The translations under genes and the position numbers were made by a program. From Neobacillus driksii (GTDB taxonomy: Bacteria > Bacillota > Bacilli > Bacillales > Cytobacillaceae): a DNA stretch of 64,000 bases. The stretch's first letter is position 1. Each line of letters begins with the position of its first letter. The stretch spans positions 349,827-413,826 of the forward strand of contig NZ_JACCBX010000002.1 in NCBI RefSeq assembly GCF_013409995.1, read 5' to 3'. Below the pieces are notes generated by a model. It saw only the letters and a list, made by a program, of their open reading frames with translations. It was not told the origin of the DNA and made no database searches. Positions 781 to 60,678 of this stretch are shown in pieces.

Positions 781-2049
781 TTATCTAACTAAAGCTGTAC
801 TTAGCCAAGGAACATATAAAAGTATGATAGCAGCAATGATTAGAGCATACATGTAAGGCATAGAACCTTTCACGACAACACTAACATTTTCTTTAAAATA
901 ACTTGATAATGCGAATAGACTTCCTCCTACTGGCGGGGTTATTTGTGAGATCATCATTAATGCGCAGGTCACGATACCAAAATGGATGGCATCAAAACCT
1001 AAACCAGTTACCACAGGATAGAGGATAGGCATTGTAATAAAGAGGATAGGGATAGGTTCCAAGAATGTCCCTAGAACAAAGAAAAGCAGTAAAATTAAGA
1101 GCATGATGATCCATGGAGACAATGATAGCTCAGTCAAAGCTCTTGTAATTCCTTGTGGAAGCTGTGTGTACATTAGTGCTGTTGAAAACAATTGAGCTCC
1201 ACCTAAAATAATGTAGATAACTGCAGTCGTCATCATTGAGCTCTTTATACTTTTAACGAGATTCTCACGTGTAAAGTCTTTTCTATTAAAAATAAAGCTT
1301 ATGAGCAGCACATATAAAACAGCAACTGCCGCTGATTCTGTTGGGGTAAATGTACCTGTATAGATTCCTCCTAATACGATAACTGGCATAAACAAAGATG
1401 GAATGGCCTCTATGAATGACTTTTTAATGGTTGAAAAGGAGCTTTTCTCTTTCACTGAGGCTTTTTCTTTTGAGCTGACGAGCACAGCCGTAATCACTAA
1501 CACAATCGAAATGAAAATACCTGGGATAATTCCTGAAATAAAAAGATCTCCTACATCTGCTCCAACCATAGAAGCATATAATACGAAGAATATACTAGGA
1601 GGGATCATAGATCCTAAAGTTCCGGCAGAAGCCACAATTCCCATACTATTCTGCATCGAGTAGCCTAAAGCTTTCATTTGTGGGATCATCAAAGTTCCTA
1701 CTGCGACAACGGTTGCAATTGAAGACCCTGATAGTGCTCCAAATACTGCACATGTGATAACGGCGGCTGCAGGGATTCCACCACGAAAATGACCAACTAA
1801 ATCATTGACAACTTTTAACATTTTATAGGCGGGTCCCATATAGGTCATGAGATTACCTGCCAGCAAGAAATATGGAATCGCTAGTAAAAGCCAACTATCT
1901 GTTGAAATGAAAAATTGAGTTGGGATACTCTCTAATGGTAAACCAATTAGGAATACACCCCAAAACACCCCACCGATACCCAATGCTAACCAGATAGGAA
2001 CACCAATAAAAAGTAATATCATAAATACGATGAATCCTAGTAAAATCAC
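781..2049 (-). CDS. dctM: TRAP transporter large permease subunit (DctM)
   Basis: Membrane translocation subunit of a tripartite ATP-independent periplasmic-type (TRAP) carrier, driving uptake with an ion gradient. The 422 residues are almost entirely hydrophobic with about 11-12 membrane segments, and show family signatures GALSGSSIATVVAVGTLMIP and SAGTLGSMIPPSIFFVLYAS near residues 105-160 and MISQITPPVGGSLFALSS near 365. Length matches the family (about 425). Starts at GTG with a strong AGGAGGGG site 6 nt away. It follows dctQ by 29 nt and precedes dctP by 83 nt, so dctQ-dctM-dctP are co-transcribed. Confidence 0.95.
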   Translation of the reverse strand: MILLGFIVFMILLFIGVPIWLALGIGGVFWGVFLIGLPLESIPTQFFISTDSWLLLAIPYFLLAGNLMTYMGPAYKMLKVVNDLVGHFRGGIPAAAVITCAVFGALSGSSIATVVAVGTLMIPQMKALGYSMQNSMGIVASAGTLGSMIPPSIFFVLYASMVGADVGDLFISGIIPGIFISIVLVITAVLVSSKEKASVKEKSSFSTIKKSFIEAIPSLFMPVIVLGGIYTGTFTPTESAAVAVLYVLLISFIFNRKDFTRENLVKSIKSSMMTTAVIYIILGGAQLFSTALMYTQLPQGITRALTELSLSPWIIMLLILLLFFVLGTFLEPIPILFITMPILYPVVTGLGFDAIHFGIVTCALMMISQITPPVGGSLFALSSYFKENVSVVVKGSMPYMYALIIAAIILLYVPWLSTALVR

Positions 2050-2078
2050 AAATATCCCCTCCTTTGCTTTTTAATAAT

Positions 2079-2621
2079 TTATATATCGAGCTCCTTTATT
2101 TCCTTCGGTGCAAGACTCTCATCATAATTATCACGAATTTTTCTATAATCTATAATTATTAGGAGAATAGAATAAACACAAGCAAAAAACATTCCAATTG
2201 GAACGGCTAAAGAAGGAAGTGCAAGCAGCATGGTCCCCGAGGTTGTTTTAATTCCTAATTGAAATAATGAAATGACCCATTGGGTTCCCGTCCAAAAAAG
2301 AACAGCACAGGAAGCCAATAAAATGATATTGATTAATAGACTATTTATTTGTAACAATCTACCTTTTAAGACGCTATTAAGAAAATCCATCTTAATATGT
2401 TCATCCTTTTTTATTAATGGACCCAGATACATGAAAGTTCCATAAATTATCGTGTAGCGGCACAGTTCTTCAACCAATGAATAAGTTGTATCAAAAAAGA
2501 ATCTCATTGCGATATTAAATAGCGCCAAGATCGTACTAATAATTAATAATGATAACGAAGAAACTTCTAATATTTTATCTAGTACCCTAGTAGACGATTC
2601 CAGCCTTTTAATGCTATTCAC
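2079..2621 (-). CDS. dctQ: TRAP transporter small permease subunit (DctQ)
   Basis: Small four-helix membrane subunit that pairs with DctM. I place the start at the GTG at 2621 because a GGGGGG ribosome binding site lies about 6 nt upstream; an upstream in-frame ATG at 2681 would add 20 residues but has only a poorly spaced site. The 180-residue product shows four hydrophobic segments and the conserved EELCRYTIIYGTFMYLGPL region followed by the DEHIKMDF motif characteristic of DctQ. It lies between the aldehyde dehydrogenase gene (97 nt upstream) and dctM in one minus-strand operon. Confidence 0.9.
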   Translation of the reverse strand: MNSIKRLESSTRVLDKILEVSSLSLLIISTILALFNIAMRFFFDTTYSLVEELCRYTIIYGTFMYLGPLIKKDEHIKMDFLNSVLKGRLLQINSLLINIILLASCAVLFWTGTQWVISLFQLGIKTTSGTMLLALPSLAVPIGMFFACVYSILLIIIDYRKIRDNYDESLAPKEIKELDI

Positions 2622-2718
2622 AATTTGGCCCCCCTTTTCCCGATTTTTTAAGAAATGGAGGACAAAATGATTTGTCTCCATTTCCTATTTCTAAGCAATA
2701 AATCGACGTGTTTTATCA

Positions 2719-4164
2719 TTAACCTTCCAAATCAACTACAACGGTCTTTACCTGTGTAAAGTCTTTAATTGATTCCAAACCATTCTCTCTGCCAACTCCG
2801 CTAGATTTATAGCCGCCATATGGAGTGACCCATCGAGTATAACGATAGGTATTCAACCAAACCATCCCTGATTGTAATGCTTTTGCCATTCTATGACCTC
2901 TTGCGATATCCTTCGTCCATACAGCAGCTGTTAACCCATAAGAAACACCATTGGCAATTTCAATCGCTTCCTCTTCAGAAGAAAATGGAATCACACTAAC
3001 TACTGGTCCAAATATCTCCTCTTGCGCAATCCTCATCGAGGGTTTAACATTTACAAACAGAGTTGGGTTGACATAGTATCCCTTTTTCAAGTGACGAGGT
3101 CGATCTCCACCTAAAATTAGTTCGGCTCCTTCTTCTTTTCCTATTTGGATATAGCTCAACGTTTTTTCCAATTGTTGCTTATGAGCATGTGGACCAATGT
3201 CTACCTGTTCCTGAGGATTACCAACTTTAATCTGTGCAGCCTTTTCTTTAAATTTCACAATAAATTCATCATAAATATCTCGATGCACGAGAACTCTTGA
3301 GGATAGTGCACAAGACTGTCCAGTGATAGCGAAGCCATGTTCAACTGCAGCATTAAGTGCTTTATCTAAATCTGCATCTGGAAAAATAATATTTGGAGAT
3401 TTTCCACCTAACTCGAAAGAAAATCTTTTAATATTACTAGATTCAGCTGCAGACTTCATAATTTTCCTAGCTGTATCTCCATACCCGGTAAAGGCAATTT
3501 TATCTATATCAGGATGGGAACTTATCCGATCGCCAACGACTGACCCATATCCTGTCACAACATTAATAACCCCTGGAGGAAAACCGGCTAGCTCTGAAAG
3601 TTTGGCTATTTCTAACGCTGTTACAGGTGATGTTTCAGCAGGTTTGACGACGATGGTATTTCCTGTTGCTAAAGCTACCGTCAATTTCCACGTTAGTAAT
3701 TGGATTGGACCATTCCATGGAATGATTGCGGCCACTACCCCGATCGGTTCTCTTATGGTGAAAATATGCTTATGGTCCTCAAATGGGATTGTTTCCCCAT
3801 GAATTTTGTCAGTGATACCCGCGTAATAGTACCACCATTGGTTATACATTTTTGCTTCTCTTGTTGTTATGTGGAGGGGCTTCCCATTTTCTTTTGTCTC
3901 AAGAGCCGCAAGGAAATTAGCATTTTCCTCCATTAAATCGCCCATTTTCCTTAAAATCGCAGACCGTTCATACGTACTCATCCTTTTCCAAGGACCGTTA
4001 AAAGCCTTTCGTGCAGCTTCTACAGCACGATCAACATCATCTGCATTTCCCTCAGGAACTTGTGCCCAAACCTCTTCGGTTGCTGGATTTATGACATCCA
4101 TCTGCTTTTCGGAACTACTATTTACCCATTCACCGCCAATAAATAACTTATTATAAATCTCCAT
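2719..4164 (-). CDS. Aldehyde dehydrogenase (NAD(P)+-dependent, ALDH superfamily)
   Basis: Oxidises an aldehyde to the carboxylic acid with NAD(P)+. The 481-residue product carries the ALDH landmarks: PWNGPIQLLTWKL and VVKPAETSP (cofactor site), FTGYGDTARKIM (Rossmann glycine loop), FELGGKSPNII with the general-base Glu near residue 255, GQSCALSSRV with the catalytic Cys near residue 290, and EEIFGPVVSV. The start at 4164 is preferred because GAGGAGGAAAAG stands directly before it; the longest frame begins 13 codons earlier at 4203. Operon with an SDR upstream and TRAP genes downstream: together they suggest uptake of a substrate followed by alcohol and aldehyde oxidation. A cre-like box precedes it. 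The aldehyde itself is unknown. Confidence 0.95.
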   Translation of the reverse strand: MEIYNKLFIGGEWVNSSSEKQMDVINPATEEVWAQVPEGNADDVDRAVEAARKAFNGPWKRMSTYERSAILRKMGDLMEENANFLAALETKENGKPLHITTREAKMYNQWWYYYAGITDKIHGETIPFEDHKHIFTIREPIGVVAAIIPWNGPIQLLTWKLTVALATGNTIVVKPAETSPVTALEIAKLSELAGFPPGVINVVTGYGSVVGDRISSHPDIDKIAFTGYGDTARKIMKSAAESSNIKRFSFELGGKSPNIIFPDADLDKALNAAVEHGFAITGQSCALSSRVLVHRDIYDEFIVKFKEKAAQIKVGNPQEQVDIGPHAHKQQLEKTLSYIQIGKEEGAELILGGDRPRHLKKGYYVNPTLFVNVKPSMRIAQEEIFGPVVSVIPFSSEEEAIEIANGVSYGLTAAVWTKDIARGHRMAKALQSGMVWLNTYRYTRWVTPYGGYKSSGVGRENGLESIKDFTQVKTVVVDLEG

Positions 4165-35743: not shown

Positions 35744-35939
35744 TATAAACGGAAAAATTCCGGCTAAATTGGGAAATACCGCTTAAAAATAACCGGAGTT
35801 TTTCCGTTTATCTTATCTAAATCTTTGGATTTTGTCTTTATAAGCAGTTAACCGGAATTTCTCCGCTTATATCCGCTTCTTAAACTCCCCTATATACACT
35901 AGCAGGAAATTCTCCGTCTATGAATACTCATACCTACAC
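35744..35939 (+). repeat. Dispersed palindromic repeat, copy in plus orientation
   Basis: 196 bp that align over nearly the whole length with the reverse complement of 59750-59952, for example ATAAACGGAAAAATTCCGG, CAAATCTTTGGATTTTGT-like centre, GCAGTTAACCGGAATTTCT and ATGAATACTCATACCTAC. Four CGGA-N-TCCG palindromes are spaced through it. It lies between the GH4 gene and the Spo0A paralogue and encodes nothing. Confidence 0.75.
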
Positions 35940-40568: not shown

Positions 40569-40680
40569 AGAATACTCTTATCAAGAGAGGTTGAGGGACT
40601 GGCCCTATGAAGCCTCGGCAGCAGACTAATCTATAGTACTGTGCCAATTCCAGTAGTGAATGCTTGAAGATAAGTAGAGA
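40569..40680 (+). promoter_or_regulatory. SAM-I riboswitch (S-box) aptamer
   Basis: Shows the S-box core: CTCTTATCAAGAGAGG at the 5' side, GAGGGACTGGCCCTATGAAG, CCTCGGCAGC (P3/P4 junction), GTGCCAATTCC, and GATAAG closing P1 near 40670. With S-adenosylmethionine bound the downstream terminator forms and the MetE-like gene is off; in methionine starvation it is transcribed. Confidence 0.95.
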
Positions 40681-58860: not shown

Positions 58861-59205
58861 TTAGAACCACCATTTTCGCTTTTCAAGGGAGCTTTGCATT
58901 TTTAATATCAATTCTTTTAGTTCCTCATTATTTTTAATGATTTGATTTTGTAAGTCAATAATTTGTTGATTCATTTCTGCTATTTGTTTTTGCAACACTG
59001 GTATAGTGTTATCCTGAAGTTCCTCTGGTTTTTTCGTGGTTTCATGACCGTTATTAGTAAGTTTCATTACATCTGAAACGGTATTCAATACTTCTGGATT
59101 TTTAAGTAATGAACCAGCAATATTCATGATTCCACTTAAATCGATAGATTTATTATCTTTCAGAGGGTTTTTGATCTCTTGTTTTGACTCATTTTCATTC
59201 GTCAT
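58861..59205 (-). CDS. Hypothetical coiled-coil protein
   Basis: 114 residues from ATG 59205 (GGAG site 8 nt upstream; the longest frame adds 23 residues). A central part SGIMNIAGSLLKNPEVLNTV resembles small spore- or division-linked Bacillus proteins, and LQKQIAEMNQQIIDLQNQII KNNEELKELILKMQ is a clear coiled coil over about five heptads. The end is KRKWWF. Cytoplasmic; probably forms dimers or trimers. No family name assigned. Confidence 0.6.
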   Translation of the reverse strand: MTNENESKQEIKNPLKDNKSIDLSGIMNIAGSLLKNPEVLNTVSDVMKLTNNGHETTKKPEELQDNTIPVLQKQIAEMNQQIIDLQNQIIKNNEELKELILKMQSSLEKRKWWF

Positions 59206-59283
59206 GTAGTAAACTCCACAAATTTCAGCTAGGTAAAATGGTAAAATGGATTGCCTATGTTCACGTTTTTCCAAATCTTACAG

Positions 59284-59311
59284 TTGTAAAATATTTATAT
59301 TTCTATATAAT
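59284..59311 (+). promoter_or_regulatory. SigA-type promoter of the guanidine riboswitch transcript
   Basis: TTGTAA (59284-59289) and TATAAT (59306-59311) with a 16-bp spacer, about 28 bp before the aptamer. The -35 box is weak, the -10 box perfect. Confidence 0.55.
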
Positions 59312-59338
59312 TTATTGTAATTGTATATGTAAATGTTT

Positions 59339-59459
59339 TCTAGGGTTCCGCAACACCCCTGTTGGTCTGGACCGAGAGAAAACTCACAGCATTGCTGTGT
59401 CACGGAAGGATAAAAGCCTGGGAGATACTGTTTAACAGTGATCTCTCAGGCTTTTTTTG
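59339..59459 (+). promoter_or_regulatory. Guanidine-I riboswitch (ykkC-yxkD leader) with terminator
   Basis: The conserved blocks of the ykkC class are present in order: CTAGGGTTCCG, GGTCTGGACCGAGAGAAAAC, TCACGGAAGGATAAAAGC, CTGGGAGA. The aptamer overlaps a terminator, AAAGCCTGGGAGAT / ATCTCTCAGGCTTT (59413-59454) plus seven T, so guanidinium binding should prevent termination and switch on export genes. The usual output, a YkkC/YkkD-type SMR pair, is encoded downstream but 560 bp away, behind repeats. Confidence 0.95.
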
Positions 59460-59513
59460 TTTTTAGCTTTGTTAAATTTAAATGTTGATTATAAGTACAA
59501 CGGTTAAAAGGTT

Positions 59514-59667
59514 GATGAAAGACTAATCAAGAGAATTTCCAGTGAGATTTGTCCTTCATAAGCATGATGAAAGACTAATCAAGAGAGTTCCCAGTGAGAT
59601 TTGTCCTTCATAGGCATGATGAAAGACTAATCAGAAGATTCCTCATTGAGTTTAGTCCTTCATCAGA
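59514..59667. repeat. Three tandem 52-bp hairpin units
   Basis: Units begin at 59514, 59566 and 59618, each with GATGAAAGACTAATC. Units 1 and 2 are almost identical; unit 3 is more diverged. Each unit has GATTTGTCCTTCAT near its end (GTTTAGTCCTTCATC in unit 3), which pairs with the beginning (12 of 14 positions), so every unit can fold as a hairpin with a 14-bp imperfect stem. Confidence 0.85.
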
Positions 59668-59749
59668 ATTTCCGTAAGAAAAATCAACAACTTTCTTTAA
59701 CAGAACCTTGTTTTTATAGGCTCTGTTATGATTCATTGTTGATTTAGGT

Positions 59750-59952
59750 GTAGGTATGAGAATTCATAGTCGGAGAATTTCCGGTTAATGTATATAGAGG
59801 AAGCTTAAGAAGCAGATTTAAGCGGAGCTATTCTGGTTAACTGCTCTAAATAAAACAAAATCCAAAGATTTGGATCATATAAACGGAAAAACTCCCCTTA
59901 TTTTTAAGGAAATATGAGCATTTCCTAATTTAGCCGGAATTTTTCCGTTTAT
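59750..59952 (-). repeat. Dispersed palindromic repeat, inverted copy
   Basis: Reverse complement aligns with 35744-35939 along its full length, with about one difference in six to eight bases and one short insertion. CGGA-TCCG palindromes are conserved, as is AAATCTTTGGATTTTGT in the centre. Confidence 0.75.
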
Positions 59953-60022
59953 TTTTCAAACACAGTAAATCAACATGAGAATTTAACAAAGCTTTTTTAT
60001 AAATTAATGGAGGTAATAGATA

Positions 60023-60364
60023 ATGAATGCAAATTGGATGAAGGTGTTTGTTGGGGCATTTTTTGAAGTGTTTTGGGTAATCGGTCTAAAACATGCAAAT
60101 GGCTTTTGGTCTTGGTCTGGTACAGTGATCTCGATTATGGTGAGTTTCTACTTAATCATCATGGCTAGCCGAAAACTTCCGGTAGGTACAGTATACGCAG
60201 TTTTTGTAGGTTTGGGGACAGCAGGAACGGTCATTTCTGAAATTATATTTTTCTCAGAACCTATCAAGCTGGAAAAAATCATGTTGATAGCACTTTTACT
60301 AGTTGGTGTGCTTGGATTAAAGTTATTAACAAAAGATGATAAACAAGAAGGAGCTGATTCCTAA
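60023..60364 (+). CDS. ykkC: SMR family efflux protein, YkkC-like subunit
   Basis: Small multidrug resistance protein of 113 residues with four membrane helices. The essential membrane Glu is in GAFFEVFWVIGLKHANGFWS near residue 15; GTVYAVFVGLGTAGTVISEI near 54-73 is the SMR helix 3 signature. The guanidine-I riboswitch upstream and the paired second gene point to a guanidinium/H+ exporter (Gdx-type) acting as a heterodimer, as YkkCD. AATGGAGG site; its stop overlaps the next start by one base. Confidence 0.9.
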   Translation: MNANWMKVFVGAFFEVFWVIGLKHANGFWSWSGTVISIMVSFYLIIMASRKLPVGTVYAVFVGLGTAGTVISEIIFFSEPIKLEKIMLIALLLVGVLGLKLLTKDDKQEGADS

Positions 60365-60678
60365 TGGCGTGGCTATCATTAATTTTAGCAGGATTATGTG
60401 AAGCATTTGGTGTTGTTACCATAAATAAATTGAATAACAGTCGTAATTGGCAATCCTTATTCCTATTAATTCTCGGATTTGGAGCCAGTTTTCTTTTTCT
60501 TGCCTACGCCATGAAAACTCTACCTATGGGGACCGCATATGCAATATGGACAGGAATTGGTTCAGCTGGTGGAGCGCTCTTAGGGATCATAATTTATGGC
60601 GAATCAAAAGATTGGAGAAGAATAGCGTGTATTGCATTAATATTAGGTGCAACGATTGGGCTAAAACTTGTTGGCTAA
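60364..60678 (+). CDS. ykkD: SMR family efflux protein, YkkD-like subunit
   Basis: 104 residues, four helices. Glu in LAGLCEAFGVVTINKLNN near residue 13 is the coupling residue; MGTAYAIWTGIGSAGGALLG near 53-72 is the helix 3 motif, including the dimer-forming Gly pattern. Overlaps the first SMR gene by one base (TAATG), so the two are translated together and probably form an antiparallel heterodimer that exports guanidinium. Confidence 0.9.
   Translation: MAWLSLILAGLCEAFGVVTINKLNNSRNWQSLFLLILGFGASFLFLAYAMKTLPMGTAYAIWTGIGSAGGALLGIIIYGESKDWRRIACIALILGATIGLKLVG

Follow-up and report, generated by a model that had tools for sequence, protein, structure and literature searches.

Two MITEs with like ends, inserted behind a guanidine-I riboswitch terminator, separate the riboswitch from ykkCD in Neobacillus driksii

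A riboswitch, two inserts and an SMR gene pair

The window, by which we mean the whole analysed stretch of 64,000 nucleotides from Neobacillus driksii (genome G000), encodes a ykkC-like and a ykkD-like SMR gene downstream of a guanidine-I riboswitch. The features of the locus, in window coordinates and compared where aligned with G016, the genome of a second species, are:

59284-59311, plus strand: promoter-like site TTGTAA-16-TATAAT (one base differs from G016 over the 44 aligned within 59284-59328)
59329-59426, plus strand: guanidine-I riboswitch aptamer (RF00442; one difference from G016 in 98 positions)
59412-59464, plus strand: intrinsic terminator of the riboswitch and landing site of the inserts (hairpin 59412-59455, T-tract from 59452)
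59457-59464, plus strand: left target duplication of E1, TTGTTTTT (8/8 bases)
59465-59707, plus strand: E1, a 243-bp MITE with three 52-bp tandem units inside
59508-59663, plus strand: the three 52-bp minisatellite units inside E1
59708-59715, plus strand: right target duplication of E1, TTGTTTTT (8/8 bases)
59711-59718, plus strand: left target duplication of E2, TTTTTATA (5 of its bases are shared with the right E1 copy)
59719-59993, plus strand: E2, a 275-bp MITE whose RNA folds end to end
59935-59957, plus strand: weak terminator-like site in E2 (5-bp stem, T-rich tail)
59994-60001, plus strand: right target duplication of E2, TTTTTATA (8/8 bases)
60009-60013, plus strand: GGAGG, ykkC ribosome-binding site, read from the sequence
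60023-60364, plus strand: ykkC-like SMR gene (PF00893)
60364-60678, plus strand: ykkD-like SMR gene (PF00893)

The Rfam scan matches the aptamer over model positions 1-107 with 85.4 bits against a cut-off of 63, and this is the one guanidine-I match found in the window's own genome. The arms of the terminator (59412-59426 and 59441-59455; -27.0 kcal/mol) form a platform that overlaps the 3' end of the aptamer, with the SMR genes downstream. Judged by these features, 59329-59464 is a complete guanidine-I riboswitch with its terminator, and switching by guanidine is predicted; riboswitches of this class are described in PMC12186494 as usually being ON switches that prevent terminator formation. 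The order noticed earlier in this DNA (promoter-like site, full aptamer, terminator, repeats, then the SMR pair) is confirmed by RF00442, PF00893 and the repeat coordinates. A consensus scan of 59200-60100 returned 3 promoter-like matches where 3.1 are expected by chance, so the call of a leader promoter at 59284-59311 rests on its position. Elsewhere in the window are a SAM riboswitch (40575-40676, 81.2 bits) and, convergent with ykkD, a gene for a Trp-repressor-like protein (PF01371; 60812-61114, minus strand).

What the earlier note took for a repeat nest inserted as one block is two MITEs with like ends, E1 and E2, separately inserted behind the riboswitch terminator. The insertion itself is borne out by the 8-bp duplications and by the short spacers of relatives described below; the single block gives way to two elements. 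The possibility that the outer 26-nt repeats enclose one single insertion was considered and rejected: taken as one unit, the flanks agree at 5/8 bases, against 8/8 for each of the two elements, and the 26-nt inverted pair (59465-59490 and 59968-59993) consists of the left end of E1 and the right end of E2. Either order of insertion yields the identical sequence.

Both elements have the characters of MITEs: they are short, carry no transposase gene, have terminal inverted repeats and 8/8 target duplications, and occur in many copies. No ORF of at least 60 aa lies inside E1 or E2. A group IIC intron was rejected on the same ground, together with the lack of any intron match at gathering score in the window. 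Queried jointly as 539 bp, the inserts give 46 matches in their own genome, E1-like and E2-like pieces taken together, and match 28 of 40 relatives. A partial second E2-like copy lies in the window itself at 35745-35939 on the minus strand (G000:C2:385571-385765). The RNA of E2 is predicted to fold with -82.8 kcal/mol (z -7.5), end-to-end folding being found in all 50 tested E2 copies of 265-285 bp, and the lengths of E1 relatives step by 52 bp (242-244, 295-296 and 348 bp).

The two elements account for the 529 bp between the terminator and the end of E2, and the gene start is displaced by 534 bp. From the end of the aptamer to the ATG of ykkC there are 596 nt. Measured from the aptamer start to the ATG, the leader is 694 nt long with the inserts and 160 nt without them (62-nt spacer); the earlier note put the lengthened leader at about 700 nt.

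Spacer length in relatives and the same inserts in G016

In an Rfam scan of sixty related loci, 56, the window's included, had a riboswitch score exceeding the cut-off; the named YkkC loci among them come from the best 80 of 512, of which 30 were scanned. In 52 of the 55 other leaders measured, the spacer is 54-81 nt long. Ten of the 56 leaders represent the same genome twice, with identical leaders, which leaves 46 distinct leaders with the window's and 42 short ones. The other long spacers are those of L078 from Neobacillus G014 (233 nt), L131 from Psychrobacillus sp. OK032 (310 nt) and L119 from Paenibacillus woosongensis (133 nt), and none of these three loci matches E1 or E2 by BLAST (E 0.01). 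A different dispersed repeat lies in the guanidine-I spacer of L078 (1860-2042; 13 matches in that genome), and another stands behind the guanidine-I terminator of L131 (2722-2975; 76 matches in that genome). Four loci had no riboswitch score of that height (L052, L071, L074 and L076). L052 is the G016 locus, whose riboswitch lies beyond the fetched flank, and in L076 (G001) a match 186 nt from ykkC stays below the threshold.

These lengths bear on whether the spacer might be an old and conserved part of the leader. The long spacer is indeed common to two species, that of the window and that of G016, which speaks for an old leader; it is absent from 52 of the 55 other leaders, and the three other long ones lack E1 and E2 by BLAST. 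We therefore regard an ancestral spacer as refuted. The check proposed earlier, for a conserved gap of about 560 bp in relatives, has thus been run, and the insertion reading stands.

In G016, whose YkkC is 99% identical, E1 and E2 occupy the same place, and since both species share them the inserts are older than the split. Its E1 has four 52-bp units against three in the window. Between E1 and E2, G016 additionally carries an IS256-family element of 1482 bp, bordered on each side by GTTTTTATA (a 9-bp duplication) and with a transposase antisense to ykkCD (L189, region 1872-3306). A second ykkCD, with a compact leader, is also found in G016. The ykkC and ykkD ORFs are intact in both genomes. 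Codon differences between the two species number 6 synonymous and 1 nonsynonymous in ykkC and 13 synonymous and 4 nonsynonymous in ykkD (19 and 5 in total), with the inserts present in both, and by this pattern the genes look maintained since G000 and G016 separated. The aptamer differs at 1/98 bases, the terminator at 1/38, E1 at 6/243 plus one unit, and E2 at 15/275. The gap between aptamer plus terminator (2/136) and E1 plus E2 (21/518 aligned) is small and too slight to argue from.

Element ends and intrinsic terminators as landing sites

The ends of the inserts define a motif, GGCTCTGTTA...TGTTGATT, which matches the window exactly once and is absent from 100 shuffles. Of 61 genomes of the genus, 15 contain a stricter form of it and none the reversed control pattern. 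Among 30 motif loci (L211-L240), 28 have a partner end, and the duplication matches at 8/8 bases in 15 and at 7/8 in 8. The interiors of elements with such ends differ, ranging from about 70 to 803 bp. An 803-bp element in the window's own genome (L257 723-1525, contig C3) seemed autonomous and was rejected as such, its interior being filled with tandem units of about 50 bp; like ends and an exact 8-bp duplication are present, and the element sits at a terminator.

Judged by the ends, the parent transposase of E1 and E2 is probably of the ISL3 type. Like ends are seen in 3 of 4 ISL3-type copies in G065, another Neobacillus (1927-1928 bp), with 0-2 mismatches to the motif at the right end and 4-5 at the left, and one copy has an exact 8-bp AT-rich duplication, TTAAAGAA, on both sides. 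In G065 the coding sequence of the ISL3-type transposase is divided between two overlapping frames (L283 1023-2601). PF01610 is matched in 9 of 61 genomes, G000 and G016 not among them. An IS1595-type element (L209 987-2688, in G015) has an A8 duplication and ends 4 and 5 mismatches from the motif, close enough to make IS1595 a candidate parent as well; we prefer ISL3 because of the fit of its right end. PF12762 has no match in the window's own genome, and IS1595-type matches were found in 2 of 6 genomes.

Many E2 copies can be seen to stand behind a hairpin and T-run. The places where such elements land were examined by rebuilding the empty sites and asking for a hairpin of -7 kcal/mol or lower, on either strand, followed by a T-tract whose start could lie up to 16 nt before the duplication centre or up to 4 nt beyond it. 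Control positions came from the same loci, were AT-rich (7/8) and ORF-free, and lay at least 60 bp away. For E2, 106 raw sites were reduced to 55 with a duplication of at least 7/8 and both ends at least 6/10, and to 52 after a first merging; E2 ends were slid by up to 14 bases to the best duplication, so that the duplication match is inflated. A terminator is found at 28 of these 52 sites and at 11.9% of 1618 control positions, and in the 37 E2 loci with controls 19 were observed where 5.2 are expected. The other element sites, 41 in number, were chosen for a duplication of at least 7/8 at fixed ends, two of them (L105 and L166) lying outside the window's genus; 28 are at a terminator, against 10.0% of 1257 control positions. 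Pooled over the 68 loci with controls, 39 are observed against 9.2 expected, and with T-runs matched the proportions are 42/58 insertions and 68/335 control positions.

Stricter merging joined three more shared-site pairs and one E2 site with another element, and reduced the four rows of the ykk locus to one place, which was then left out. In these rows those of E1 are hits and those of E2 misses, the latter because there E2 does not adjoin the hairpin but follows E1 or the IS256 element. The strict count is 52 of 85 sites at a terminator T-tract (E2 26/47, others 26/38). The pooled and E2-control statistics predate this merging and the control positions are partly dependent, so that the size of the effect is the point. 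The duplication centre lies 5-14 nt from the first T (median 9), within a search range of -4 to 16; at the ykk locus, the offset is 9 for E1, and by the coordinates it would be 12 for E2 on the empty site. Elements with these ends are thus shown statistically to be strongly enriched at intrinsic terminators relative to matched AT-rich positions, and at a narrow offset. To the insertion proposed in the earlier note we can add a likely cause, a preference of the elements for intrinsic terminators (52/85, against 10-12% of controls).

The same excess could arise, wholly or in part, by survivorship, if elements inserted at any AT-rich site and the copies behind terminators, where they do least harm, were kept. 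Terminators do lie in tolerant sequence, and the duplications are AT-rich in general (695/744 bases). Yet the controls are themselves AT-rich, ORF-free and from the same loci, the excess persists when T-runs are matched, and harm alone predicts no narrow offset such as the 5-14 nt observed; we consider survivorship a rather unlikely explanation.

Predicted guanidine control across the lengthened leader

We think it likely that terminator-favouring MITEs split this leader while leaving the terminator intact, and that guanidine control is kept through predicted read-through. Transposition, probably by an ISL3-type transposase, would favour terminators and would be harmless at most places; in a riboswitch the terminator precedes the gene, so that insertion there parts the sensor from the gene, and the leader terminator would be a collateral target. 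The two MITEs went separately into the T-tract that follows the riboswitch hairpin, with 8 bp duplicated each time and the hairpin and T-tract left whole. From the sequence, it is the duplication that keeps a T-tract on the riboswitch side and hence the terminator whole. Without guanidine, polymerase would halt at the untouched terminator, and with guanidine the antiterminated polymerase would cross 529 bp of self-folding E1/E2 RNA to reach ykkCD.

Of the three consequences offered in the earlier note, read-through is the one we favour. Another is that the inserts damage control, so that guanidine is sensed and little transcript reaches ykkCD, whether through a weak terminator in E2, through the E2 foldback by its T-rich duplication or through decay of the long leader. 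The inserts are strongly folded, and the E2 foldback directly abuts the T-rich duplication and might stop polymerase too. Terminator-like sites in 59200-60100 number 2 against 0.4 expected, one in E2 and one on the minus strand in the aptamer. A stricter rule misses the site at 59935-59957 and gives instead one weak site at 59726 (-7.9 kcal/mol); by this rule a sense-strand terminator site is found in 26 of 50 E2 copies, and the window copy alone has none. None of the possible stop sites of E2 resembles the riboswitch terminator of -27 kcal/mol. The ribosome-binding site is predicted to be less open, four of the five GGAGG bases going from above 0.9 to 0.47-0.71, and the second ykkCD of G016, with its compact leader, would also fit damaged control. 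Against such damage stand the intact ORFs of both species with mostly synonymous codon differences, the presence of one guanidine-I match in the window's own genome, and the position of serS, with one match in its genome, behind an insert of the same kind (see below). We consider damaged control unlikely. Still less likely, in our view, is that the inserts bring a promoter of their own and make ykkCD partly constitutive. In its favour, the BrickBuilt MITEs of Porphyromonas are described as containing promoter elements (PMC4596501). Here the earlier suggestion finds no support: promoter-like matches are at the chance level (3 against 3.1), the only sense-strand one downstream of the aptamer overlaps the start codon, and the consensus scan, which can miss promoters, returns no sense-strand one around the MITE of serS.

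The serS locus, L217, is in a different species (G065). The order at 1248-1720 and beyond is T-box (1248-1474), terminator, a 184-bp MITE that has like ends and TATTTTAT on both sides, ribosome site and serS (TIGR00414); here, too, the element stands between terminator and gene. The G065 genome has one serS match, and serS is indispensable. This case argues that a gene the cell needs can probably be expressed across such an insert. In an Rfam scan of 80 element loci, serS is the only other case in which an element parts a leader RNA from its gene; the T-box of L212 and that of L003 lie beyond the element, and in L311 the cspA match spans the csp gene, which E2 follows.

The locus varies on known precedents. 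In the pneumococcal trp leader, a BOX element lies between two T-boxes, and from RNA-seq the authors conclude that the riboswitches still work (PMC3049150). As there, where the leader described reaches nearly a kilobase, the leader under riboswitch control contains a mobile repeat whose inner units vary; unlike BOX, which stands between two sensors, E1 and E2 stand between terminator and gene. The likeness is one of layout alone, E1 and E2 are not claimed as BOX members, and the account of BOX in PMC3049150, as far as it was available, states no terminator-targeting rule. E1 resembles BrickBuilt of Porphyromonas gingivalis, a MITE with an inner tandem array, beside 10 of 19 copies of which terminators and/or polyadenylation sites are predicted (PMC4596501); it differs in having 52-nt units and an 8-bp duplication, where BrickBuilt is described with 23-nt units and irregular duplications. 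The ISL3-type elements of G065 have a right end close to the motif (0-2 mismatches) and, exact in one copy, an 8-bp AT-rich duplication; their left end is further off (4-5 mismatches), and E1 and E2 carry no transposase, none being detected in their own genome. Class C (group IIC) introns are reported to insert downstream of Rho-independent terminators (PMC3522654, citing Robart 2007); being RNA retroelements, these are an analogy to E1 and E2 and not their relatives. In the text available to us, a MITE review speaks of intergenic sites and not of terminators as targets (PMC10969869), and PMC4133298 does not mention terminator targeting. A literature in which subscription journals were thinly covered yielded no DNA transposon or MITE reported to target terminators, and this absence is therefore weak evidence.

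The preference for terminators is the part worth pursuing. Tentatively, and with a little less than even confidence, we propose that a transposition system, probably of the ISL3 type, targets the terminator itself, and that leader terminators are standing landing pads where elements stack. The duplication would start about 5 nt after the first T and rebuild the T-tract, and stacking (two MITEs here, and IS256 too in G016) would perhaps follow from a foldback plus T-rich duplication that resembles a terminator again. One odd locus would then lead to a rule, testable on many genomes, for where this element group lands, with the prediction that genes under terminator-type riboswitches or T-boxes occasionally receive long leaders. 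The ykkCD and serS loci are natural experiments on the tolerated distance between a transcription switch and its gene. If leader terminators are such landing pads, leaders would gain RNA modules between sensor and gene with the switch kept.
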